NCBI GenBank assembly: GCA_914767715.1
Contig: OU612074.1
Span: 11,564,062 to 11,628,061, forward strand
From: Membranipora membranacea
Lineage: Eukaryota; Bryozoa; Gymnolaemata; Cheilostomatida; Membraniporidae
Direction: 5' to 3'
DNA length: 64,000 bases
Shown: positions 1,390-39,600 of the stretch, piece by piece
Layout of the letters: the number at the start of each line of letters is the position of its first letter
How positions within the stretch are numbered: position 1 is the stretch's first letter
Made by a program: the position numbers and the translations under genes
Notes under the pieces: generated by a model
What the model saw: the letters and a program-made list of their open reading frames with translations, nothing else
What the model was told of the DNA's origin: nothing
Databases searched by the model: none

Positions 1390-4300
1390 CCCTATTTTTC
1401 TCTGTGTAGTAAAGTAATATAACACATTTATGCTGTAAAATGTGAAGCATTTCTAGGTGAAAACTATTTTTAATCTTTGAAACTGTCACCCCGCACTTTG
1501 AGGTACTGAAGGGTGCGTACTGTGCAAACCCAATAAGCTACACCTACTTATCCTTTTCAAATAGATTTAAAAAAACATGTATTTCAGTCAGAAGACAGTT
1601 CGCGATAGTAAATAACTTCATAATCATATTCAGCATTCGCACTTCTCTAAAGTAGTTTATTTCGCTTGTACAATACATACCCATAGTAACCTCATGGAGG
1701 GACAGTTTCTACCACGATACATGTTAACAGCACTGAACAGCTATGCCAATAATTGTTTCACTGTAAAGATATTGCGTAATAAATGCGTAACTGGTTGATA
1801 CACTTCATACCTGATGAAGTAGTTGGGAAGCATTCTGTTCTGCAAGAATTCTATGTACGTATTTATCATCTTCTTAAAAACGCGTCCCAAGTCTTGGTTA
1901 CCTTTGATTTTGTAGAAGTCCAAATCAGTTTCCTATAATCAATTTAAAGGCAGAGTGTTAAGGTTTATGAGGGTAGATGAAGACTTCAGTCCATCATTTG
2001 CCTTGATGACACAAAGGGTCTTTCCTCAAATCTATGAGCTTGGAAACTTGTAAGCATCAGGTCCGTTCATGTGTTCAAACTTTTGAACATAAGGCAAAAG
2101 AGTCAGAGTAGCCATCGTTAGCTTTAGGAGAAAGCACCAATACAACACAGCAGTTTGGTGAGTATTTGAGTGATAGGCTATAAAACAGTTTTATTGATTT
2201 TCATGGTGCTTGAAGGCTGATTAATAATCAAGTTATCATATCAAGTATTCTAAAGCATACAGCAATTGCCGCAAGAGGTTTTGCGCTCAGTTTACAGGCC
2301 GGTCGGAGCAAACCTGGGAGCCAAACAAAACCCAGTAGTCAATGGATTGCAGTGGGATCCAAACCCACATCCTTCATCAGCTGCATGCCTAAGGAACGGT
2401 GCTCTTACCAACTGAGCCACCTCCTACTCTTTAGGCAGCGACTGTTTATTAAATTTGATGCTTTGTACACTGATACTCGGTGTACAGAGCATCCAGTGTG
2501 GTGGACCATCAATATCATTTACAAATGATCAACGCCTCATGGCAAAATTTAACAAACCTGCTCAGCCATCCACAGGAATACTGTCTTCAGGTGATATGTT
2601 CGCAGTACAGGAGTCTGCTCTGCAGCCAACCGCCTCAATACATGGCAGATACTCTGGAAATAATTTGAGATGGTGAGCTGTTAGGAAAAATTATCAGTTA
2701 ACTGCCCTGAACTGTGATGCTTTAAACATTAACTTTGTAAGTATTCAAGTAACATAACTATGTTTTAACACAGATAGTTATACTGCTTTGAAAGAAACAA
2801 CTTCCATACCTGTTGGAAGGTGCAACAGGATGCCATTCCAGTATATCTACTAACTGAACTTTTAATCTGGAACTTCAATAGGATATAAGCCAGTTTCAGA
2901 GCTTTCTTGTCACCATGATAGTGGAATAAGTCAGCCTCAGCACCAGCGAATGTGTACCTCCAATCAAAGTCATGATGATGGGGAACGGTGTCTGAACCTG
3001 AAACTTGACATAATATTCCCTAAGAGTACTTGAAAAGACATTGGTTTTACTACTGCTGAAGGTAACAAATTGTAAGAATAAATATTGATTTAATCTTACG
3101 CTATCAATTAATGAGATTACCGTGGCCTATAACTGCCAGAGCATGAAGTGAAAACACACATTGACCCGCTACAAATTGAGACATTTACCGGCCCCAAATC
3201 TATATCTGCAAAATACCCCGCCACAAATTGGTTTTTGCAAAATACGCCGCCGCAAATTCAGAGATTTACCCGCCACAAATCGTCTTTTGCAAAATACCCC
3301 GCCACAGATTGGTTTTTGCAAAATACCCCGCCGCAAATTCAGACATGTACCCGCCACAAATCGTTTTCTGCAAAATACCCCGCCGCAAGTTCAGAGATTG
3401 ACCCGCTGCAAATCTGTTTTTGCAAAATACCCTGCTGCAAATTCAGATATTGACCTGCTGCAAATCAGTTCTAGCAAAATACCCTGCTGCAAATCGAGAC
3501 ATTTACCCGCCGCAAGTCCGTTTTTATAAAATGACCCACCGCAAATTGAATCATTTACCCGCCGCAATTCCATTTCTGCAAAATATCCCGTCACAAATCG
3601 TTTTCTGCAAAACACCCCGCCGCAAATTCAGAGATTGACCCGCTGCAAATCGGTTTTTGCAAAATACCCCGCCGCAAATTGAGACATTTACCCGCCGCAA
3701 ATCAGTTTTTACAAAATGACCCGCCACAAATTGAGACATTTACCCGCCGCAAATCCATTTCTGCAAAATATCCCGTCACAAATCGTTTTCTGCAAAACTA
3801 CCCGCCGCAAATTCAGAGATTGACCCACTGCAAATCGGTTTTTGCAAAATACCCCGCCGCAAATTGAGACATTTACCCGCCGCAAATCAGTTTTTACAAA
3901 ATGACCCGCCACAAATTGAGACATTTACCTGCCGCAAATCCATTTCTGCAAAATACCCCGCCACAAATCAGTTTTTGTAAAATACCCCGCCGAAAATTCA
4001 GAGATTTACCCGCCAAAAATAGTTTTCTGCAAAACACCCAGCCGCATATTCAGAGATTTACCCGCCACAAATCGTATTCTGCAAAATACCCGCCGCAAAT
4101 TCAGAAATTGACCCGCTGCAAATCGGTTTTTGCAAAATAACCTGCTGCAAATTCAGAGATTGACCTGCTGCAAATCAGTTCTAGCAAAATACCCTGCTGC
4201 AAATTCAGACATTCACCTGCCGCAAATCAGTTCTAGCAAAATACCCTGCTGCAAATTCGGACATTCACCTGCTGCAAATCAGTTCTAGCAAAATACCTTG

Positions 4301-7300
4301 CTGCAAATCGAGACATTTACCCGCCGCAAATCCGTTTTTATAAAATTACCCACCGCAAATTGAGACATTTACCCGCCGCAATTCCATTTCTGCAAAATAT
4401 CCCGTCACAAATCGTTTTCTGCAAAACACCCCGCCGCAAATTCAGAGATTGACCCGCTGCAAGTCGGTTTTTGCAAAATACCCTGCTGCAAATTCAGAGA
4501 TTGACCTGCTTCAAATCAGTTCTAGCAAAATACCCTGCTGCAAATTCAGACATTCACCTGCCGCAAATCAGTTCTAGCAAAATACCCTGCTGCAAATTCG
4601 GACATTCACCTGCTGCAAATCAGTTCTAGCAAAATACCTTGCTGCAAATCGAGACATTTACCCGCCGCAAATCCGTTTTTATAAAATGACCCGCCGCAAA
4701 TTGAGACATTTACCAGCCGCAAATCCAATTCTGCAAAATACCCCGCCACAAATCGTTTTTTGCAAAATAACCCCCCTCCCCCCGCAAATACAGAGATTTA
4801 CCCGCCACAAATTGTTTACTTCAAAAAACCCCGCCGCAAATTCGGACATTGACCTGCTACAAGTTGAGAAATTTACCCGCCACAAATGGTTTTCTGCAAA
4901 ATACCCCGCCCCAAATTCGGAGATTTACTCGCCACAAATCGTTATCTGCAAAATACCCCGCCACAAATCGGTTTTTGCAAAATACCCCGCCGCAAATTCA
5001 GAGATTTACCCGCCACAAATCGTTTTCTGCAAAATAGCCCGCCGCAAATTCGGACATTGACCTGCTACAAGTTGCGACATTTACCCGCCACAAATCTTTT
5101 TCTGCAAAATACCCCGCCACAAATTTAGAGATTTACTCGCTACAAATCCAGACATTGACCTGCTACAAATTCAGACATTTACCCGCTACAAATTCTCTTT
5201 TGTTATGACTAGCTGCAATTTCAATTTTGTCTTTAACTATTTTACAATAAATATAATCATGATCCCCTAAATAGTAGCTTGAAGTAATTATTTGCAACAA
5301 AATAGTCTGCGGATACAACCAAGTGATGTCTATAATGCTCGTGTGTTTCCTGCTCATCGGCCTATGCAACTTAGGTCATCCATCAATTGATATTATGCAA
5401 TCTCAGCTTGAAAAAAAACAGAAACTGGAATTTATTACTGTGTTCAATGTGCCACAAAAGTTTGAATAATTTCGCTTATTGATGAACATTGATGACAAAG
5501 ACTTGCCAACAGTGCTAGTTTGAGGGCTCAAACGCTTTTAAAATGGGTTAGTGGTTTGATAGCTTCGCACCACTAACCCAATTTAAAACCGTTTGAGCCC
5601 TCAAACTACAAGAGCGCAAGTGGACTTGGGGCCTAAACATCAAGTCCCCATGCAGACTTTACAGCATACCTCGCAACCTTTGGGCACAATAACTAGGTAA
5701 ATCCTTGACAGATTCTGCTTTATTAACCATGATGATATTATTTGTAAGTACATATAGTAAAAACCATATCTGTTCACATATGATAAGGATACCAAAAGTA
5801 CAAAAAACTTTAAGACACAGAACACAAATATAAATATGACGTATATGTTTGTTTAAGTACACATAAGTAAAGTTCCACAAAATATGTGATCACTCTGACA
5901 AGAAATATATAATGTGCAACTCAACTGTTAAATTTTAGTTCATAAAATGCCGATGATTTTATGAATTTATTTTTGACATCAAATTTTTTTTGTATTTGGG
6001 CCACAAAAATATTGAACCCTATGTTTGACTAAAATGTAACACCACACACCAGTGGTACTGTATTTGTAGGGTAGGCCCCCTACGCTCCACTCCACTTCAC
6101 CCACTCCCATTTTTACACATCACTGAACATGCCTCCATGGCAGAGCCCGAACCCCATGCAAAACAAAAAACTGTCTAAAGCTACGTTTGCTGCTGTGACC
6201 GGTAGTGAAAGTGTGAGAGAACATGTGCTCGCACTAGGATAACTTAGTGTGGCGTGGTTGTCAAACACGATTGTAGGTTTCGAGGGCCACCCGCAGGCAG
6301 GTTGACGAGTTGATCCTGTTGCGAATGAAATTAGGTTGTGAGGCTTTAGTTTATTCAGGGTCGCCTTGAGGTCAGGGTGGTCATTCAGTTTCTCGGTTTT
6401 CTTGCCATCTACTGTCACCTCTGCACTCATGCTTTCAATGAGTTCATTGTCTCAAATAGTTAGATACATCAGGAAGGGCAATCACATCTACATGTAAATT
6501 ATTTGGTGAGAGGGACTGCACTTTACTCAATTTTGACATCAGCACCAAAATACATATACCAAATTACATATTTTGAACATCATAGATATTCAAATTGATA
6601 ATCTAAAATATATTGTTTTGATTCATTTTTATATCTACACTCGTATCCATTTTGTGGGAACTACCCCTCCCCCCCCCCCACTTCTTGCTCACTGCAAAAC
6701 TACTGAAATTGGCATTTTCACAGATTTTTAACCACATTAATCTACGCCATATTTATTTTAATTCGAGGGCTACAGGATGAGAAAGGTCGAAGCTCGGTCA
6801 AGGTTTCTACTGTACAAATGAGGCAGGTCAGATACACTGAGCAAAACACTGCCCTAGATAGGACTCTCTAAGCTACGCATATGCCCTAGCCCTACCAATA
6901 GCAATATCCATTCAGGAAAAAGACAGGTGCGTGTACGAACTGTGCTTTCATCATTGGTAGATTAGCTTGACCTTATTTATGTTTAATAGCAAAAGAAGTT
7001 CTATTCCAAGTTTCAGTCACCCATTAATGCTGGAATTTTGTGTGCAATGTAGATTGATAGAAATAGTGGAAACGGAATCATCTTATCACAAATTGTATTA
7101 TTTTCAAACCTGAATCCCAATTTTAAACAAACACCCTTCACCATCGACAATTTCTTTGAAATTCTAATAGGCTTTATAATTAATGGGAAACTGGCTGATA
7201 ATCACCAATCAGTTATAACAACTGAACAGACCAACCCACATTTTTTTTGTTTTCTTAAAACACACAAAAGTTTTAAATTGACATCCTCCCAGGCTCCTGA

Positions 7301-10300
7301 TCAATTTTCCCTCGAAATCACACTGATGTTCTTAGCTGGCCTCTGTACCTCATAGAGAAGAACAGGCATAACAATGCCATGCTCCCTGAGCATATCTAAA
7401 AACTAGGAAAAGAAAAAAAATTATTATATTGGCTCATGCTGATAACGGTCGCAATACACATTCTTTTGCTCAGCCTTGAAATTGCCGTTCGTTCGTCTTG
7501 GATGCAGTAAAATGTATTGGTATCAATATGTTCAGTCAATAGAATAAGCAGTATATTACTTGCTTTGAAACTAAGGCCACAACTTTGGACATCCTAAATG
7601 TATCTATAACCATAATAAGGTATGTAAAGCTAAAGTTAATAAGGCATGCAAACAACGTTCCCACAATGCAATTATTTTTGACTGAAATTGCGAGGATTAC
7701 TGAGCAAAACTGTTATATGAGACATGTATCATTGACCGATTGTTCCAGGGAATTCCCTCTTTGACATGCCCCATTTGGTCTTATTCTTGTGCTGCTCACA
7801 GGCCAATCAGGAGTATAGCGTATTGTATACATTTGCTCAAACCCCATTTCCAAGAAAACCACTGATTAAAAACATACTTATCAATTAAGGGTGGTTATCG
7901 GACCGAAAGACTAGGATTAGATAGCTATGGGCTATGGGATGGAAGGAAAAACCTACCAACCTTGACCTACATATGACAAGTTCCTAACATGGTAGTCTGA
8001 GCCCCCAGACTTTTGCCCAACGCATGACGCCCCCCCCCCCTCCCCGGCGAGTGTTTGGGGTTTGTGACACGCCCCAATCAGCAACATAATTTTTGAAAGC
8101 TATCGGTTTAAGATTTTGGGCTAGCTTAAGAAAGCTTTGGAATATTGTATATACTCTTCATTGGTAGGCTTTTACTACTTGCGGGATATGGTGGGGTGCA
8201 TTGCCAAAACCATAAACTTACAGTAAAGCTTTTCTGTAAGTTTATGGCCAAAACCTCTCAACCAAAAGTGTTTCGCTATATCATCATGACGTAACGGAGG
8301 CTGTTTAATTATATATAAAGGGAATTTTAAAATCGCAATAAAAACACCAAACTGTTTGAAACAAATAAATTTTCTAAATTAATTATTAAGGTGTCCCCAC
8401 AAGTAATTTCAAGCCAAGCTACATCCTCTAAATATGACCAGCCTCGATTGGTTGCATCATACATCAACTTGTATGGTGGTCTCCAAACTAGTAGTATTTG
8501 GAAAATTTCTCTAGTCTACTCATAGATTGGAATTTCTACAGAAAGAATTTTTAATACGCAACAGAAGCTCATCAGATGACCATGGGAAGTACTAGAGGCG
8601 TGATAAAATTATTTTCTAATGGGGAATTGAACACAGGGGGTTGGAGGTGTATTATTTTACATCAAAATTTTAGGTCAAGAATGCCATGGAGGGAAAAGAT
8701 CTGATATTTTCTTGCACACTTCAACCGGAGGGAGTTTGATATAGATCAATTGTTTGATTTGGAGTGGCCTAATGTATAGAATGTAAAATGTTATCTCTGT
8801 CTGTCTGTCAAAAAATAAAGAAATGATAGAGATACTATAGTTATACTGATTTATGAGTTATCTTTTCATTTATTCTTGGCCACAACTCGTTGAACTACCG
8901 TGTGTAAAGAGAGAACATTGATTGTGAACTAAATGTGATTGATTTTATTTATTGATATTATTGACCTACGTGTATATGTAGATAGGACTGTCTAGTTACT
9001 TATCATTACGTATACAATTTATTATCAGTCTTGCTTACCCCTCCATGATTGAGGCCACACATCAGCTAGTCTATATATGGTTTCCGTTGCATTACTAAGT
9101 TATAGCAATACAAGTTGACAAACTCATCTCTGTTTTGTGCACTTATAATGGTTGGCAGTCCATCCATGTCAAGCCTATTCGACAGCAATTCGCTGTCTAT
9201 GATAGTACGAATCTCTTCCTGGCTTTTGGCATTCAGCAGCTAGCAAAAATACAGATAGCATAATATAATAGTTTGCATAGTAATACTAATAATAATAGTA
9301 ACAATAACTAGACATAACGTACAATTTTTGCGAGCAACCAATAATGGAGTCAAACAACTGATGCATTAAAATTAGAGCTGTGCAATAAACCGAATATATC
9401 GTATCGGTTTGAAAATATACAAAAATTATAGGTAGTAAAATTGAATACCGAAATACCGAATTATCGATATCGACTATATTATCGGTTTAAAATACTATCT
9501 TTGGTCTGTAAATGATGCTTTCTGATGTTATTTTGATGGCAGGAGTTCAAAATTTCCCATTAAATATCCACAAGTTCACAAAAACTCTGCAAAACGAATA
9601 AATCGAATATATCGGTTTCAAAATGAAAATATCGTATCGGTCTTGAATTTGGAACCCCTTCCCAGCCCTAGAAAAAATGGGAGTTGTTTTCTCGAAGAAA
9701 TTACTGCACAATTCCAAAAAGCGGTACGGAAAATACGCTTGTAACTACAACAAAGTATGTGTGTGATTGGCCGGTTAGGCTAATGGCTGATGACTCCGGT
9801 CGAAAATATAGAAAAACTTTTTGAATTTTGATGCCTGATGACCAAACAAAGACAACAGACATTGCATGAGTAATACTGTCGAAATCCAACAAAAACAAGT
9901 GTCATACAATGTACATGTACCAATGTCTGACTTAAAATACCAAAGAGATAACTTACTTTGGAGTGGAAAAAAACTTGCATTGCTTGCACTACACCACTGC
10001 ACTCACAGGCATGTTTCCAGGGATTTCTACTTTTTGTTTGACTCAACGTAAAATACCCCTTCTTCTAGACCATTTTACAGCTTTGCCAGCTTAACCACTT
10101 AAGATATACCTGCTCTGTTTAGGCATGGGTTAGTTATTAACTCAACGAAATATCCTGCAGTTGACGCATAAAGTAACTTAAAAACAAGTTTTTTTATGCA
10201 GTGAAAAACAGCTACAATGTATTTTTGAGCAATATTGTGCGTCACTTGCGGAAAACTAGTGTACTCATAATTTTCAGATCAGCCCATGTCTAAACAGAGC

Positions 10301-13300
10301 GGGTATATAGGTGGTTAAGGTGACAGAAGTGTAAAATGGTCTAGAAGAAGGGGGTCTTTAACATTGCGTCCAACCAAAGAAGAAATCCCTGAAAAAATGC
10401 CTGTAAGCTAAGCACAGTGGCTTACTGCAATCAATTTTCGCCAAACCCACCTCAAATTGGGCAATAAGGTTGTTTGACAGAATATGCTTCCCAAGAATTC
10501 ACATCCATTTTTGTAAACTAATGAACAACCTTATGACATGGCTTAATTAGCCCCCCCCCCCCCTCTGATCCCTATTATTATTATCATTAAAAATGTGTTA
10601 AGATGAGATGGGGTAATCGGTTATCGGTTGCTCAATGATACTTTTCATACGTGACCATCTCACATGTGATTAGCATTGACACATGAGAAGTAGTCAGTGA
10701 CAGCTTTGTCAAAAGTCAGTTAACACCAGACCTGTGATTAAGGATTTAACAAGTCAAGTCACAAGACAGGATATTTATTCTAATTCAAGTTAAAGTTTGA
10801 ATTTAACAAAACTGCCAGCCTAAGAGGAGGTAATGGATTGATATTCAAAAACGAGGCATTTCTTTGCCCTATGACAATAAACATACTCTAAAATGGTGCT
10901 TAATTACACTTATTGCTCATTTTTGGCCCATTTTTTTATGTAAATCTGGGCAAGTCAAGTATTTGGAAGTGAAGTACCCAAATCACTGTGACTTGGTCAC
11001 AGCTGTAGTTAGCACTAACATTAAATAATTAATATAAAACATGATTTTTATACATAAAAACACTAACCTCGGTCAAAGCAGCAGCCACTGTGGGCGTCAT
11101 GTCATGGACTACAACCGGCGGCATTACACCAGTGCCCGCCTCTATGTAGCGACAGGTTAGGGAGTAAAGCAGCTTTGGTGAGGGTCCCCCTTGGGTTGTC
11201 ATCGTTGACAACATCTCACCTGCTAACCTGTAATCACCACCCTGGAGTGCTCTTGTATTGCACCTAATAGCAGATGTGCCATCTTCAGCTACAACAAATA
11301 AGCATTTATGAGGTTATGTAACCGGTAACTGGTACTTTGACTTAGAAGTGTACACAGTGATATTCACCACTCGATTCGAAGGCTGAGCATTAACAGTGTA
11401 CGTGTATATATATATATACACACATTTGTGCAATAAAGTGTCATATATCCCACTATTGTACCCATAAAAACCCTGGACAATGAGTCTTTCATATATACAT
11501 ATATAGAATGATAATAGGGCTTTTATGTGACCGTTATGTGTACTACCCCATACCTTTGGGTTCCAGATGATTGTGGGGTCTTTGAAGGGCCCATAACAAA
11601 ATGTTTCATGCGCTCTAAACTTACAACTCTTGTATACATCAGTATTACACATGGCCATATAAACATGTATATATGAATAAAATGTTGTACACCTGATGAA
11701 ATGAATCCATTAATACAGCTTAACTTTGTTTCTCAAAATATAAATACAAGACACGCTGGTAATTCTCAACTCCCATTTCTGCATCACAAGTTTTATTCTG
11801 TTATCCTGCAACCAATACTAAGTTGGAATATGAACAAATGAGGCCGGTCATCGCAGGGGTCAACCAGGGACACACCCCAACACCAGAAGCAAAAATAATT
11901 CCACTTCTATGATACCTCTGTGAGATATATTGAAGTGGTATCGACAGGATTCCTTATTGTGAGCTTTCCTACACAACTGAATCATAACTCAGCCACTGTA
12001 ATTAATAGACCGGCTGTGACTGCAGGTGGTACGGATCATGGTTGATCAATATCGGGTAGGATACTGTATCTACCAGTAGTTGCAACTTCGGGTCGAATCG
12101 GTTATTCAAGTGCCACCCATGCATTGGCACTGCAGTAGGAGGACAGTAGCACTGACAATAATTTATGTCATCTGCTTGAGCGGCGGTCCTGATAAATTTA
12201 ACTGTTATGTCATACATGTGCGCATTAATCTGAATCAAGCCCAACAAGGAGCACCCGGATTGTACATGCATACCCACTAGCAAGACATTTTCCTATGCCA
12301 GAGTTGTCTCTTATTTTATTAAGTTAAGACAACTGCTGAGACCCCATTGTTGAACATGTTGATAGCTGCAGCGCCCTGACAACCGCTTACCAAAGTTTAA
12401 ACACATAAACTAATCTTACTGCGATAAATCTTGTCTCTCACTACGCAGATTGGGTTCAATGTGCATATTACTCTCTCCATTCCGGACATGCTGGATTATT
12501 GGTGTCTTGTATGATTGGCGATCCTACATTACACGAAGGGCCATCAAGGATTAGCGTCACAGCTAGCAAGGTATTCATAAACGCCAGTAAACCTTTTTTG
12601 GATTTTCCCACCAATATTGAACCACAACCAGAAGATTGTTCCACCCCTAGCTGTAACCACAAAAGCGCAGCTGCTGCATCACAAGAGGGGAGTAAATGAA
12701 TGCAAAATATGGAGAGAAATCTCGAGAGCAAAATTATTGGGAGGCAAATCAACCTCCCTGTATTTAGCTTGCTTTTATCCAGAATGACTAAATATAACAC
12801 ACCTGCACTGAATAGCCCACTATCTCTTACTATGGAGGGCAGAAGGAGCTCAAAAAACTCTCTGCGCGGCCCTCCCTGGTCTGCAGAGGGCTCTGCACAA
12901 TCTAGCTCGCCAGAGAATTTGCAAAGTATGACACCCGAGCGACCAGCTACAGTGGGCAGCTTCCAGGAGTTAAAGGCCGACCTCCACACATTCTTCCTCT
13001 GTACCACTATGCGGCGTAGTTGGCCTGTTACCGTTTCTGAATGAGCTTTTAGTATTCCTTCTATCTCTTCTCGCTTAAGGTCCCTGAAATATGACACAAC
13101 GCTATAAAGAATTTGTAAAAAGGGTTTGGTGAGGGATTACCTTACCAATCCTTTTGAATACAGGAATGCAAAACTGATTTGTTACATGTCCCAAATAAGC
13201 CATGTGAGTGATGTATAAAGTAGTAGGAGTTGTACTTCAATTGTAATTAAGGACACTCCAAATTAATACCTCCACCCCTCCACCTTTGCATCTTCCAACT

Positions 13301-16300
13301 GTCATCTGAATCAAGGCATATCAGATGACAGTTGGAAGATGCAAAGGTGGAGGGGTGGAGGTTTTGTTTTTTAAATTTCTTCTCAATTCTTGAGTAGGAG
13401 GCACCATTCTATGGGTTTTTTGGGGGAGGGCAAAAGGATTCTAACTGTTTAAAATTAATATAACATATTTTTCATATTATGGGTAGGAGCATAGTGGAGA
13501 ATGAAATATTTCATTTTATCAACCAAAATTTTCACCAGTTCAATTAATTAATTTGGTGTGACCTAAATTGTGTCTTTTTTTGCATATGGAAACAGAACAT
13601 AATAATAGTAAATACTTGATGCGGACCAGTTCATTGATGTGGCTGTTGGCCAGTGTTTTATGAAATGGGAGAGTGCATACACTGGAAGCAAGAGCACGAT
13701 CAGTAACCCTGCACAAGATGGCCAGTCATGTACTTAAAACACTATTCTGAATTTGTACCCCCACAATAACAGTAGGCCTATACCAGTCAATGTCCCTGGT
13801 TATGATTATACATGTAACTTGGCTGGCTACTCACCTAGCAGGTCGCTTGTTTTGTTTTATACCCTTTTCCAGCATCTTTTGGAATTCTCGCTCCTCATCG
13901 CTGTTATCGCTAACATCATTGAATTTCACAACCAACCTAAGCCACCTACCACTAGGAACTGCATCCTCCCTGCTTTATCTTATCTCCAGGTGCCAATGAT
14001 GTGTGTCAATATTGCAAGTGCTCCAACCTTGGGGATAGGATGGCTGGTGAGACCCACCAACTCCTTGTTCTCATATTGTTCAGACATGCTTATTGATTGA
14101 TTGAATGACTACATACATATTGTTTTCCAATTTCATTTGTATGTTGGTATTATGTGCATCCCATAAGTTCTTGGACTATTGCCAGAAGATCACAACTTCA
14201 AATTTTAGTACAGCAATATGGCACAACTCAGAGACACTATCTTGCCTGTTGCCTATTTACATATTGGTAATACATTGGTTAAAACAAATAGTCTTTCCTC
14301 CATTTGCCGCAGGTTAATCATCAAATTTGCCACAGGTAAATCAGCAAATTTGCCACAGGTAAATCAGCAAATTTGCAACAGCTCATTTTGCAAAAACTGA
14401 ATTGTAGCAGGTCAATGCCTGAATTTGCAGCAGGTCAGTGCCCGAATTTGTAGCAGGTCATTTTGTAAAAAATCTTATTTGCAGCAGGTCAATGTGTGAA
14501 TTTGCAGTAGGTGTATGTCTGAATTTGCAGCGGGTTATTTTGCAAAACTTGATTTGTGGCAGGTAAATCTCTGAATTTGCGGCGGGGTATTTTGCAAAAA
14601 CCGATTTATGGCGGGGTATTTTGCAGAAATGGATTTGCGGCGGATAAATGTCTCAATTTGCGGCGGGTCTTTTTGTAAAGACGGATTTGCGGCGGGTAAA
14701 TGTCTCAATTTGCGGCGGGTCATTTTGTAGAAACGGATTTGCGGCGGGTTAATGTCTCGATTTGCAGCAAGGTATTTTGCTAGAACTGATTTGCGGCAGG
14801 TGACTGTCTGAATTTGCAGCAGGGTATTTTGCTAGAACTGATCTGCAGCAGGTAAATCTCTGAATTTGCAGCAGGTTATTTTGCAAAAACCGATTTGCAG
14901 CAGGTCAATTTCTGAATTTGCGGCGGGTATTTTGCAGAGTACGATTTGTGGCGGGTAAATCTCTGAATTTGCGGCGGGGTGTTTTCCAGAAAACTATTTT
15001 TGGCGGGTAAATCTCTGAATTTTCGGCGGGGTATTTTGCAGTAAACAATTCGTGGCGGGTAAATCTCTGAATTTGCGGCGGGGTATTTTGCAAAAACTGA
15101 TTTGTGGCGGGGTATTTTGCAGAAATGGATTTGCGGCGGGTAAATGTCTCAATATGTGGCGGGTCATTTTGTAAAAACTGATTTGCGGCGGGTAAATGTC
15201 TCAATTTGTAGCGGGTCAAGGCGCGTTTTCAATTCATGCTCTGGCAGTTATAGGCCACGGTAAGAGATGAACCGATGCTGAAACCTCAAACATCAAAGTT
15301 AAGCTGACAAACGACAAATATAATTGCCATAGAATGTTACCGCATTGTTTATGAACTAGGTGGCATCCTTTTGCTGCTATCATCCTGACTGTTGCGTTGT
15401 CCAGATTAGGCCTGTCTCTTGACATCCACTCAGCAGCTTCCTTTGGCCAGAAGGGATATCGGAGAGCAAATGCATAGTCCGCCTTGAACAAAAGGTCATG
15501 TGTACCAAAATGGAAACACACTACCCTATGATATTTGTGTAAAGTAGGTGTTTGTGGCTTAAGCTGATTCGCTATTATGCAGAACTTATAATACATTTAA
15601 TAGGAAAAGGAATAGGAATAGGAAAAAACTGAGAAGCATGTCTCTTTGTTAAACATCTGACAAAGTCTGGAACATTTGGTGCATCTCTTTGAACCCAAGA
15701 AGCTTATCAGTCTTAGGCCGAGGAAATCAGCAATGTAAATTTTATCAGGTTATGAAATCAAGAATATCAACTCACATCAAAGAATTGGTATCCACTTGGT
15801 CCATATTGTCTGCTTTGGAAAGTCAAGGCTGGATATTGAGCTAACAGGTTCATGGTTTGAGATCCGTCAGGGACTTCAAGGAACTTCGCCAACCCTTCTA
15901 TGAGCTTGTATCCTGAGAGTAGGTACTTGTCTACTGTGTAAGGAACTTTGAAAAAGCTTCCTTTGACAACTGGGTCAACCAGTTGGTCTAACTAAAATAA
16001 ATGTTTTTACATCAGTAATATGATATTGGACTTTTTTGTGGTATACAAAGATAATCATAATATATCAAGATAATAAAAGAATCAGATATCATTTAATGAT
16101 ATTACGAAGCTGTCCACTTGCCACAAAGTCAAATAACTCAAGAAATTATACTGTTATCTTATTAGTATATATAACCAGGTTAGAAATAAAATACAAATTT
16201 CTGTTACATGAAATCAACGGATTGATAAGCTCAGATCAAACCTTACCTCAGCTTTTGTGACCTCAATCCATGTAAACCCAAGAGCTTCAGGAACAGACTT

Positions 16301-33684: not shown

Positions 33685-36600
33685 ATGCCTAAGAACTCTA
33701 AGGGAAGGATATTTGAGTACTTTGCTGTCTCAGGATTGGATTATAGAAGAGGTTTAGAACCATTCACCACTGGACTAGAATCATGTTCGCTTGAAGATGA
33801 AGATTCAGGTTAGTCTCGTCTGTTCACTTGAATATATCAGACAGTATGAGTATCAATCACCCCATGGAGCAAGTCTAATGATGAATATGAGTGCTTCATT
33901 TTGCTATGAAATGGTTCACTGTAAATCATTTGGCCACATGCATAGTAGTAAAGTAGTACCTCCAAAGGAGTAACTGTTACGTAAGAATACTCCTTAGTCA
34001 TTGCTGTTACTCCGAGTCCTTGGTACCAGTTAATAAAGTAATTGACCAATGTTGCTTGCTTTCACTGCTAGATAGATACCCATCAAGGGTAGCTAGTACA
34101 GTAGGTCCACCATAGTAACATGGAGTCTACTACTGCCTATATTTATTACCAGTTGTCTTGATGAAAATCTTATTATCCACTAATATTGTGAGTTACTGGT
34201 CCACCTGTAGAAAGCTATCACTGTCTTTTGACTGTTGTAATTGAGTGACATCAAGTGTAGTGACTACTACTTTGGAGTTGTTTACTCCCTAACTTATACA
34301 TTACTACTTTGGAGTTGTCTACTCCCTATTGTGGCTTATTACAGCAGCCCAACTTGATACCAATTATTATTGTCAACCATCTTGAAGATGTTTAGATTTC
34401 TTGGTTAGAGATCATCATTTATTATCAGAAGAATAAACAGACTATTCATTGCCATCACAATTAGCAGTTCTTACAATGGCGACAAGGATGGGATTATGAG
34501 TTCAAAAAAATATCACAAATAGTGAATCTGACAAGATAAGCTGCTAAACTTTCTGTGTGAAGAAATAGCTGTGAGCTCTCTGGAATAGACAGAATAAGAT
34601 AAGTATTGTTTACTATTTATTGCTGTATCAATCCAAACTGGCAAATGGATACCAGAGGCCCAAGTCATTTCACACCAGATGGGGATGCTAGCACAGTATC
34701 AGTCAATTGGGATGCTTGGCTTGAGGAATTTGAGGCTTTTGCTGATTCAAAAGGGCTGTTCAATTTGGCAGGGGAAGATAATGCAAATATGAGAGCCCAG
34801 AGGAAAGCTTTATTACTATATCATGCAGGCCCAAGAGTAAGGGAAATTCACAGCACACTTGATCAAACACAGAGAGATCAATATACTGAAATGGTAGCTG
34901 TTCTACAAGGCCATTTCCATATAGCTCCTAACATCACCTATCAGCGACACATGTTTAGGCAATGTATACAGAAGGAAACCGAAACTATATCCCAATACTG
35001 TGCTAGACTCAGAAAATTGGCCACCCATTGTGATTATGGCGATGCCCAAGCTGTGAATAACCAAATCCGTGATCAAATAGTAGAAGGTTGCACAGCCGAT
35101 AAGTTGAGGGAAAAGCTATTGGAAGAGGGAAATGCACTTACATTGCAAATACTATTGACACGGTCAGCAACACATGAAGCTGTGGTCCAAAGGTCCCGGG
35201 AGATGAATAATGCCTCGGCAATAAACCGTGTGGCCTCTGGATCCACTGCCAGAAAACCTAGTTTCACACAAGAGACTGAGGGTGCTAATGTATGTCCCCG
35301 TTGTAATCTCACACACAAACCTCGTGAGTGCCCGGCATATGGAAAACAGTGCCGTAAGTGTGATGGAATGAATCACTATGCTCGGTGCTGTCAAAACAAG
35401 GCCAAACAGAATGGCCAAGGTGCGAATGCAGGATATTACAGATCTAGAAGGGCCAACAATGTAAATGTGGGGGATCACCAGCAAGCCAGCCCTGAAACAG
35501 TGAACAATAATTCTGAGAGCCCAGAATTTGTATTCAATTCTTACCATGTACCTTTAGTGTGTAATAGTAACTCTCTAGACAGAGTTAATGTCTATGTCGG
35601 TGGTGTATCAGCGAGGTTTATAATAGACTCAGGGTCAGAGTGCAATGTGATGTCACGGGATACCTATGAACGTTTGAGAGCAAGTAAGTTTATTATCAAA
35701 CGGTTCATCAGTGGAGGACCAAAGATTCTCCCGTACACAGCCAAAGAGCCTATTCAGCCAGTAGGTAGGGTATGGTGTGATTTACAGCTGCATAACAACA
35801 CTGCTGTTTTAGAAGATGTCGCATTTACTGTTATTCCTAATAAAGGTGAATCTTTGTTAGGAAATGAAACAGGTAAACAACTAGGTGTAATCAGGATTAT
35901 AAATAGAGTAGGCTTAGATGATTATGAAGCTAGATATCCAAGGCTGTTCTCAGAGGTATTGGGTAAGTCTAAGAATGAGATAAAGCTGACAATTAGAGAT
36001 GATATAGCGCCTGTTGCTCAGCCATTCCGAAGAGTGCCACTGTTGTTGAGAGATAAACTAGCCGCTCACTTAGATGAGCTTATCGCACATGATATAATAG
36101 AGAAAGTCGAAGGTCATTCAGGGTCATCATGGGTAAGTCCAGCAGTGATCATTCCAAAGAAGGAATCCGGTAAGATTAGGTTATGCATTGATATGAGGAG
36201 AGCCAATGAGGCTATAGTTAGGCACCAACACCCAGTCCCCACCGTAGACGAGATGCTATATGACATGAATGGGGCTCAGTACTTTTCGAAGCTGGACATG
36301 CGCATGGGGTTCCACCAATTTGTTCTTCACCCTGAGTCCAGGGATATCACAACTTTCAGTACTCATTTAGGCCTATATAGATATAAGAGACTCATGTTTG
36401 GGATAAATGCGGCTCCAGAAATATACCAGAAGGAGGTCGCCAAAATTATCCAAGGCCTGCCGGGTGTAGCAAATCTTGCCGATGATATCATTGTCCATGC
36501 CAAAACAAGGGAAGAGCACGATCGTAGGCTGGGTGAGGTGTTCAGTCGTCTAGAGCAGGCTAACATGACTCTGAATAAAAAGAAGTGTGAGATTGGGGTT

Positions 36601-39600
36601 CAGCAGTTAGAGTTTCTCGGACATCTCCTTAGTTACAAGGGTATTGATCCCCATGGTTGCAAAGTCAAGGCAGTCAAAGATGCTGCTGTTCCTAAGACAG
36701 TTGGTGAGTTGAAGAGTTTCCTCGGTTTGACTAGTTATATGTCTAAGTTTATTCCACATTACTCTCACACAACTGATGTGTTGAGGAGGTTGTCAACGGG
36801 TAAAAATTCCCGAGAGGCTATATGTTTGTCAGATAAGGAGATTGTGGCTTTCAATCAGCTAAAGGCTGATTTATGTAATCATGATACTTTGACTCACTTC
36901 GATACTAGTTGTGAGACTCTGCTGTACACAGATGCCAGTCCTGTGGGGCTAGGCGCAATACTGGTACAGATTCAAAATGGCGAGCCCAAAGTGGTTAGCT
37001 ATGGAAGTAGAGCATTGTCTGATGTCGAGAAAAGATACATGCAGACAGAAAAAGAAGCTCTAGGTATTGTCTGGGCATGTGAGAGGTTTCATCATTATCT
37101 CTTTGGTTGTCGGTTCAAAGTGGTTTCTGATTGTGAGCCTCTTGAGTCCATTTATGGAAACAAAACCAAGAGGACATCCCTTCGTATAGAGAGGTGGCAG
37201 CTTCGTTTACAGTCATATGATTTTGAGATAGTTCGCGTAAAAAGCTCAGATAATATTGCTGACCCCCTGTCAAGGCTTCTATGTTCGAAAAAGGCGACTG
37301 AACACCTGGTAGAAAGGGAAAATGTTGAGCTCTATGTACGTAGTGTTGTGGAGGACAATGTGCCATCGGCAATCACACCCCGCTATATTGAGGAAGTCTC
37401 TTATATGGATGAGGAGATTAAGGCCTTAAAACAAGCTATAAGAGCGAATTCATTCGACAATGTTGATATACCAGCTGTATATAGGGCCATTAAAAATGAG
37501 TTATGTGTCATAGGGGAGTTAGTTTTGAGGGGAGGTAGGATAGTAGTACCTCAAGAGCTCAGACAGAAGATGCTTGAGATAGCTCACGAGGGTCATAGTG
37601 GGATGGGAGGCACCAAGAGATATCTACGAACAAGAGTCTGGTGGCCCGGAATCGACTCTGATGTAGACAAGTATGTTAAACACTGTCACGATTGTCAGTT
37701 GACCAGTAAGCCACTAGATAGGCAGCCAGTAAGGTTGACAGAACTTCCCAATGGACCATGGGAAGATCTTGCCTTAGATTTTTTGGGTCCCCTGTCTAAC
37801 GGTAAGTCAGTTCTAGTCTTAACAGACTATTATAGTAGGTGGAACGAAGTAAAGTTCATGACAGTCACAAAAGCTAGTGATGTTATTTCTTGGCTGAAAT
37901 CAGTATTTTTTACGCATGGGTATCCACTCAGCATGAAGAGTGACAACGGGCCACAGTTTATCTCTCATGAGTATGGTGAGTTTTGCTCCGGGTATGGTAT
38001 CGAACAGTGTCTGACAACCCCTAGGTGGCCTGAGGCCAATGGTCAAGTGGAGAGACAAAACAGATCCATAATGAAGCGTATTCAGATTGCACACAACAAT
38101 AGGGTAGACTATGAGAGTGCCCTCATGACATGGCTGTTTACATATCGTAATACACCACATTCCATTACTGGCAAAAGCCCAGCAGAGATGTTATTTGGGC
38201 GTGTGCTTAGGACTAACTTGCCAAGTCTGCCTAATAGTTTTGATGACGTTGAAGCTAGAGATAGAGATAGTGAGATGAAACATAAGATGATAGCCACCCG
38301 TAACGAGAAGTTGGAAACTGGTAGTGGCAATAACCACCAGCTAGAGATAGGCAGTTTTGTTTTGGTTAAGAGAGATAGTCCATCTAAATGTCAGACACTG
38401 TTCCACCCAGATCCATTTGTGGTAATGGACATAAAAGGCTCTCAGATCACTGTAAAATCCAGGGCAGGCCGGCTGTATAAGCGTAACATAAGCCATGTTA
38501 GACCGTATTACTGCTCTGAGAAACCTGTTGTAGATGCGGACGTGGATTCTGAAACGCAGGGAGCCTTAGTAGCCACCCGCCCATCACAGATGATACCGAT
38601 AATACCAAGGTCAGAGAACGATACTGAGACGGTAACAGATAGACCAGTTCAAGTGACGCCGCCTACAGTACCACCGGCACTTGTCGAGATCGAAGATATA
38701 CCTCAGGCAGCCAATATGCCCAGCTCATCACAACCAAATGTGCCTACTCCTCGTAAATCTGTACGAGCTAAGAATCGGCCAGCTAAATATGATGGTTTCG
38801 TGACCGAGTACCACACCTAGTGACTGGATGTTTCAAATGAAGCATGAGAAACTGTGGAGTCAGTCACCATGAGAAATCATGTTACACAGATATCTCCAGT
38901 ATACAACAAGTATAATTACATACAGAGACACAAAACATTCTTAGTTGCCGCCACCATGAACCTGGTGCTCAACGTCAAAGTAATTGACATAAAAGCGGAT
39001 GTAGTGACTACTACTTTGGAGTTGTTTACTCCCTAACTTATACATTACTACTTTGGAGTTGTCTACTCCCTATTGTGGCTTATTACAGCAGCCCAACTTG
39101 ATACCAATTATTATTGTCAACCATCTTGAAGATGTTTAGATTTCTTGGTTAGAGATCATCATTTATTATCAGAAGAATAAACAGACTATTCATTGCCATC
39201 ACAATTAGCAGTTCTTACATCAAGCAAAGCTGCTCTCATGTTGAGAATGTAGTATCAGGCCTTGTTTGTTTTTCAGATGTACTATTGTCCTCAAACCATA
39301 TAGGTTTATTGCTTTAACCATCTTCATTGACTTTAGATCAACAATGTGCACCTTTCTAGTTTCAGGACCTGATATAAATTATCACAAATGACATTAAAAC
39401 TTTTTCATATCATTTTTCTATACACTTGACTTAATGCAATGATAAAAAGCTGGCTTGTACCGTTACATTTGTTATCTCGTGTTTGGAGTTGATGTCAATA
39501 GATGTAGCCATCTGTTAGTGCATCAGTAGTGTCACCATCGACTCAGGCCAAAAGTTCATGATCCTCACTTTCATAATGCAATATTTTTAAAGACAGTGGG

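Follow-up and report, generated by a model that had tools for sequence, protein, structure and literature searches.

Among the described systems closest to the locus reported here, IS3EU elements are characterized, in the passage of PMC10045372 that lists their traits, by TA..TA ends and usually 6-bp target duplications, and a passage of PMC12730594 describes fungal IS3EU families in which an alpha-kinase gene lies opposite in orientation to the transposase. Foldback elements such as Tetris of Drosophila carry tandem repeats inside their terminal inverted repeats (PMC4079207), and Dada elements make 6- to 7-bp duplications, lack terminal inverted repeats, and target small RNA genes (PMC3706591, excerpt). 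We analyzed a 64,000-nucleotide stretch of the genome of the bryozoan Membranipora membranacea (contig OU612074.1, positions 11,564,062 to 11,628,061; hereafter the window), which contains a 12,145-bp element with inverted tips, long inverted arms, and an intron-containing gene for a HECT ubiquitin ligase. We lean toward reading this element as a transposase-less copy of IS3EU/GingerRoot type in a predicted Mab-21 intron, carrying a decaying G2E3-like HECT gene that is probably a regular partner of the transposon lineage.

The family represented in the window resembles IS3EU/GingerRoot in its TA..TA termini and in the 6-bp duplications of most copies (traits as given in that passage of PMC10045372), and relatives of its HECT gene adjoin a PF24764 integrase-core gene. 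It differs in lacking a detected transposase and in having long inverted tandem arms and two 7-bp duplications. The fungal IS3EU elements with TET/JBP and alpha-kinase genes, as presented in the cited part of PMC12730594, likewise show 6-bp duplications and an accessory enzyme gene opposite to the transposase, an arrangement seen here at the HECT relatives; unlike them, the bryozoan elements have a HECT ubiquitin ligase, an animal-type gene, in place of alpha-kinase and TET/JBP. The tandem repeats inside the terminal inverted repeats recall Tetris (PMC4079207), although foldback describes the shape of the arms only, and the window family adds defined tips, duplications, and a HECT-bearing interior. 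IS3EU-like ends together with foldback-like arms and, as a likely partner gene, a HECT ligase make a combination that is likely to be new. An open-access literature search returned no paper pairing HECT with IS3EU, a search for IS3EU with ubiquitin returned only papers unrelated by title and abstract, and broader searches for HECT with transposons gave no such element among the matches listed.

Tips, target duplications, and arms of a dispersed family

The genome (339 Mb, 18 contigs) was searched for the tips with up to 3 mismatches allowed, which gave 35 matches; by our own count, 27 of them belong to 14 pairs, 2 lie within copies, and 6 have no partner. Copies differ at the first base of the tip, and the inverted repeat is therefore taken to begin TACCGTGG, with the full repeat TACCGTGGCCTATAACTGCCAGAGCATGAA and the element at window positions 3118-15262. 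The first-pass annotation had placed it at 3113..15267; the inverted tips that it proposed are present, trimmed here to 30 bp by the exclusion of the variable base. All 14 paired copies show the TA..TA termini (TACCGTGG..CCACGGTA), with the second base changed at one end of a single copy (L044). Target duplications are perfect over 6 bp in 10 of the 14 pairs and over 7 bp in two (L042 and L043); the window copy has a 6-bp duplication with one mismatch (TGAGAT/AGAGAT, 5/6), and L050 has no duplication. The 4-bp GAGA duplication suggested previously is a part of TGAGAT/AGAGAT and gives way to the 6-bp length found in most copies.

Paired copies range from 665 to 12,145 bp. Ten short copies are made up of arm repeats plus a core that is homologous to window 14207-14330 (2 bases uncovered in one of them), and further interior pieces are retained in L037, L038, L039, and the window copy. 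The long inverted arms built of tandem repeats, as in foldback elements, were recovered on both sides of the element as first described. Interior sequence is present at no fewer than five sites, namely, the window, C5:27.90 Mb, C6 (L038), C2 (L037), and C5:27.23 Mb (L058, with no tips within 3.7 kb), a lower bound since 40 of 479 candidates were scored; the same search also matched two short C2 pieces. These copies bear out the view of the block as a mobile element with relatives elsewhere in the genome. The expected sibling blocks in inverted pairs exist and the HECT-bearing interior recurs among them, although the duplications are of 6 bp rather than 4 bp and ten pairs hold arms and core only.

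Some members of the family show peculiarities of their own. The inner tip sequence CGTGGCCTATAACTGCC reappears within the tandem arm units of L047. Two tip-bearing loci at C8:25.34 and 25.39 Mb (L054 and L055) share 98.9% identity across 9.9 kb and represent a local duplication that took an element end with it. Inside the L037 copy, two minus-strand frames (L037:1221-3586) match a gag zinc knuckle and, weakly, an aspartyl protease; this is likely a nested retroelement piece, and no direct repeat of at least 60 bp that could represent long terminal repeats was found around these frames.

A broken G2E3-like HECT gene

The HECT gene is encoded on the minus strand between about 13971 and 6113, and at least six of its exons, separated by introns, were recognized. 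Its last exon matches PF00632 (E 1.3e-6; 28.7 bits against a cut-off of 23.9), and its PSASTC motif aligns, with a weak score, to the catalytic motif of AREL1. The intron-containing HECT gene that the first-pass annotation had recognized inside the element is thus upheld by the domain match and the exon structure. A query of the joined exons matches proteins of fish and sponge that bear the name G2/M phase-specific E3-like; a further match, at 97% identity, is a fragment from a different data set. In a profile search, at least 62 relatives were found at E 1e-8 or better among the best 7996 candidates scored, many of them named G2E3-like and belonging to fish, molluscs, cnidarians, a hemichordate, and a sponge. 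Domain, motif (at its weak score), and relatives all point to a G2E3-like HECT ligase, broken in the window. Unclassified repeats with a G2E3 match have been recorded in Cottus fish (PMC5638112, excerpt), which resemble the present case in the G2E3 ligase similarity of a repetitive candidate element; the passage in question gives neither structure nor transposase, and we treat these repeats as an independent hint.

The window gene is interrupted by an in-frame TAG, common to the C5 copy, and lacks about 120 bp, among them the remainder of one exon, that C5 and L038 retain. In L038 the frame of the last HECT exon is interrupted, and HECT exons are broken or missing in all five interior copies. 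Identities to the window, computed with approximate exon borders (the upstream exon is about 23 bases off), are 97.0% for exons and 95.8% for other sequence in C5, 96.1 and 95.9% in L038, and 94.9 and 96.2% in L037. Codon differences between the window and C5 comprise 16 nonsynonymous and 6 synonymous changes, one of which removes the final stop in C5. No selection on the HECT exons is visible in either comparison, and the HECT-bearing copies look like decaying passengers.

Two further observations concern HECT-associated sequence. A second HECT gene (C5:27911046-27911360, within L057) borders the C5 copy just beyond its left tip. A repeat of about 100 bp in a HECT intron (window about 11405-11506) has dozens of matches genome-wide among the 40 of 479 candidates scored.

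HECT relatives beside PF24764 integrase-core genes

The HECT query identified ten loci outside the tip family. At the closest (C2:37.448 Mb, L059; 49/40% identity), a convergent 337-aa open frame downstream of HECT matches PF24764 (E 2.8e-33), the domain that we take to be the IS3EU-type core. HECT and a 333-aa PF24764 frame (E 6.6e-58) also occupy opposite strands at L060, which belongs to a dispersed family with L061 (98.8% identity) and L062 (about 94%) over several kilobases; the PF24764 frame of L062 contains stops. The C7/C3 repeat that holds L060 and L061 is about 14 to 16 kb long and carries both genes. A genome search with PF24764 gave 25 matches, merged into 22 loci, and none in 14 control genomes. 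The domain lies 713 to 960 bp from 8 of the 10 HECT loci, where 0.003 such pairs would be expected by chance, and the strands of both searches make all eight pairs convergent. In addition, three splice sites are common to the window and L059 HECT genes, which favors descent as DNA over a processed copy. Since relatives of the ligase gene adjoin integrase-type genes at other loci of the genome, the ligase probably belongs to a transposon lineage as a regular partner and is less likely to be a stray gene of the host.

This arrangement bears on whether the ligase was acquired by accident. A nonautonomous foldback-type element could have acquired a G2E3-like HECT gene of the host, introns included, in the Pack-type fashion and without any partnership; such an origin would agree with the apparent drift of the HECT exons, the abundance of G2E3-like genes in animals, the failure to find a transposase with the window tips, and the HECT gene beside the C5 copy that has no PF24764 neighbor. 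We nevertheless consider it unlikely, as the nearest HECT locus outside the family, which at 49/40% identity would be the closest candidate for a parental host gene, itself adjoins PF24764, as do seven more loci. The first-pass annotation had left it undecided whether the element carries or captured the ligase: an intron-bearing gene is indeed carried, its copy has decayed, and capture is less likely than a transposon partner gene since 8 of the 10 other HECT loci adjoin PF24764.

Several observations count against an IS3EU-type element with a partner ligase. No HECT gene was established as intact, and the L059 HECT contains an in-frame stop. Seven of the eight paired loci represent one repeat family, so the association is that of two lineages, whose transposases are 30% identical. 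Fourteen of the 22 PF24764 loci are without a nearby HECT match, as judged by a single HECT query that missed the HECT gene beside the C5 copy. A PF24764 neighbor is absent at the HECT loci C7:15.15 Mb and C5:26.30 Mb, and for the HECT gene beside the C5 copy no PF24764-like frame was present up to a distance of about 3.5 kb. The window tips are absent from the stretches read at L059, C7, and C3. The L060/L061 repeat has a sharp left end (TATGGGGAGCCC) for which no inverted right-end partner was found, and a search for inverted ends at L059 gave only two 24-nt pairs, neither enclosing the genes. Pfam detected no transposase in six frames of window 5201-14200, nor in a 9.9-kb stretch at the far side of the C5 copy, and tblastn with the L059 and L060 frames detected none at the tip-family loci searched. 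An IS3/IS481-like DDE transposase thus went undetected in the searched element interior and tip-family loci, and PF24764 adjoins HECT relatives with other or unknown ends. Finally, the ends of the element read TACCG..CGGTA and not TAYGG..CCRTA, a motif that the cited passage of PMC12730594 states for fungal TET+ IS3EU only.

The unmatched tips at the HECT/PF24764 loci and the lack of a transposase in the tip-family loci searched, together with the occurrence of both 6- and 7-bp duplications, would also fit another or a new superfamily with 6- to 7-bp duplications, the HECT/PF24764 neighbors then being unrelated to the mobility of the family. We judge this improbable. Dada, which shares the 6- to 7-bp duplications, lacks terminal inverted repeats and sits in RNA genes (PMC3706591, excerpt), whereas the window family has 30-bp inverted tips, and a tRNA/Rfam scan gave no match in 13 of 14 paired copies; membership in Dada was rejected on both grounds.

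Under the preferred reading of an IS3EU/GingerRoot-type copy with a partner ligase, the window family would descend from an element with both HECT and transposase and would then have lost the transposase. A related IS3EU-type transposase might act in trans, cutting at the TA..TA tips, with the tandem units of the arms as candidate binding sites; insertion would leave the 6-bp duplications, and internal deletion would shrink copies to the short, arm-only forms. By analogy with the accessory enzymes of fungal IS3EU described in part of PMC12730594, an intact ligase might help the transposon by removing host silencing proteins or by controlling the level of the transposase. A wider proposal is advanced tentatively, as a possibility that falls short of likely: in an animal IS3EU-type lineage, a G2E3-like HECT ligase would be a permanent second gene, comparable to the alpha-kinase of fungal members; it would lie convergent to the transposase and would disarm or retune host control of the transposon. 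Should a ubiquitin ligase prove to be a regular gene of transposons, these may influence their hosts by way of protein degradation; in fish and molluscs, part of the G2E3-like expansions now annotated as host genes would then belong to transposons and would need rereading. The pattern of HECT beside PF24764 between matching ends can be tested in any genome.

The predicted Mab-21 intron and further features

The element lies in the predicted Mab-21 intron 2998-15340, which would measure about 190 bp without it. Joining the flanking exons, which have GT..AG borders, leaves the reading frame open through the junction. The joined sequence matches PF03281 without interruption at 24.9 bits; by itself the first exon scores 19.7 bits, and the second gives no match. 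The in-frame union of these exons around the block, as first annotated, is thereby sustained, and the placement of the 12-kb element in a Mab-21 intron is supported at the level of the predicted gene. A query of four joined exon translations of the predicted gene found no homologue at E 0.001, as might be the case if the "gene" were two separate halves or a dead gene and the block not an intron insertion. The in-frame junction, the GT..AG borders, and the continuous, higher-scoring PF03281 match make this improbable. The element shares the orientation of Mab-21 and, lying within an intron, would be spliced out. A 12-kb copy appears to be tolerated in the intron, and some of its relatives are reduced to bare arms. 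Positions of all features are listed in Table 1.

Table 1. Features of the element and its predicted host gene, in window positions
Feature	Position	Strand	Basis
Mab-21 exon downstream of insertion	2810..2997	-	Exon join, PF03281
Left target duplication, TGAGAT	3112..3117	+	5/6 match to right side
Whole element, 12,145 bp	3118..15262		Tips compared with other copies
Left 30-bp inverted tip	3118..3147	+	Tips compared with other copies
Left arm of tandem repeats (units about 23/29/52 bp)	3162..5195	+	Repeat analysis
Last HECT exon: C lobe, PSASTC motif, stop included	6113..6450	-	PF00632, motif alignment
HECT exon, truncated; about 120 bp more in C5 and L038 copies	7334..7402	-	Copy comparison
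HECT exon with in-frame TAG (about 9066-9068) common to C5 copy	9039..9241	-	Copy comparison
HECT exon	11068..11281	-	Exon alignment
HECT exon, GGPRREFF motif	12803..13085	-	Exon alignment
HECT upstream exon, borders approximate	13835..13971	-	HECT query matches
Core retained in ten short copies	14207..14330		Short-copy alignment
Right arm, left-arm units inverted	14302..15218	-	Repeat analysis
Right inverted tip, 30 bp	15233..15262	-	Tips compared with other copies
Right target duplication, AGAGAT	15263..15268	+	Duplication comparison of paired copies
Mab-21 exon upstream of insertion	15341..15482	-	Exon join, PF03281

Further reading frames were recorded apart from the element copies. About 0.9 kb beyond the truncated copy at L049, large leucine-rich frames (L049:1590-4052) presumably belong to a Toll-like-receptor-like gene. 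Within the window, a 1405-aa open frame on the plus strand (34603-38820) looks like what we assume to be a Ty3-type retrotransposon polyprotein.

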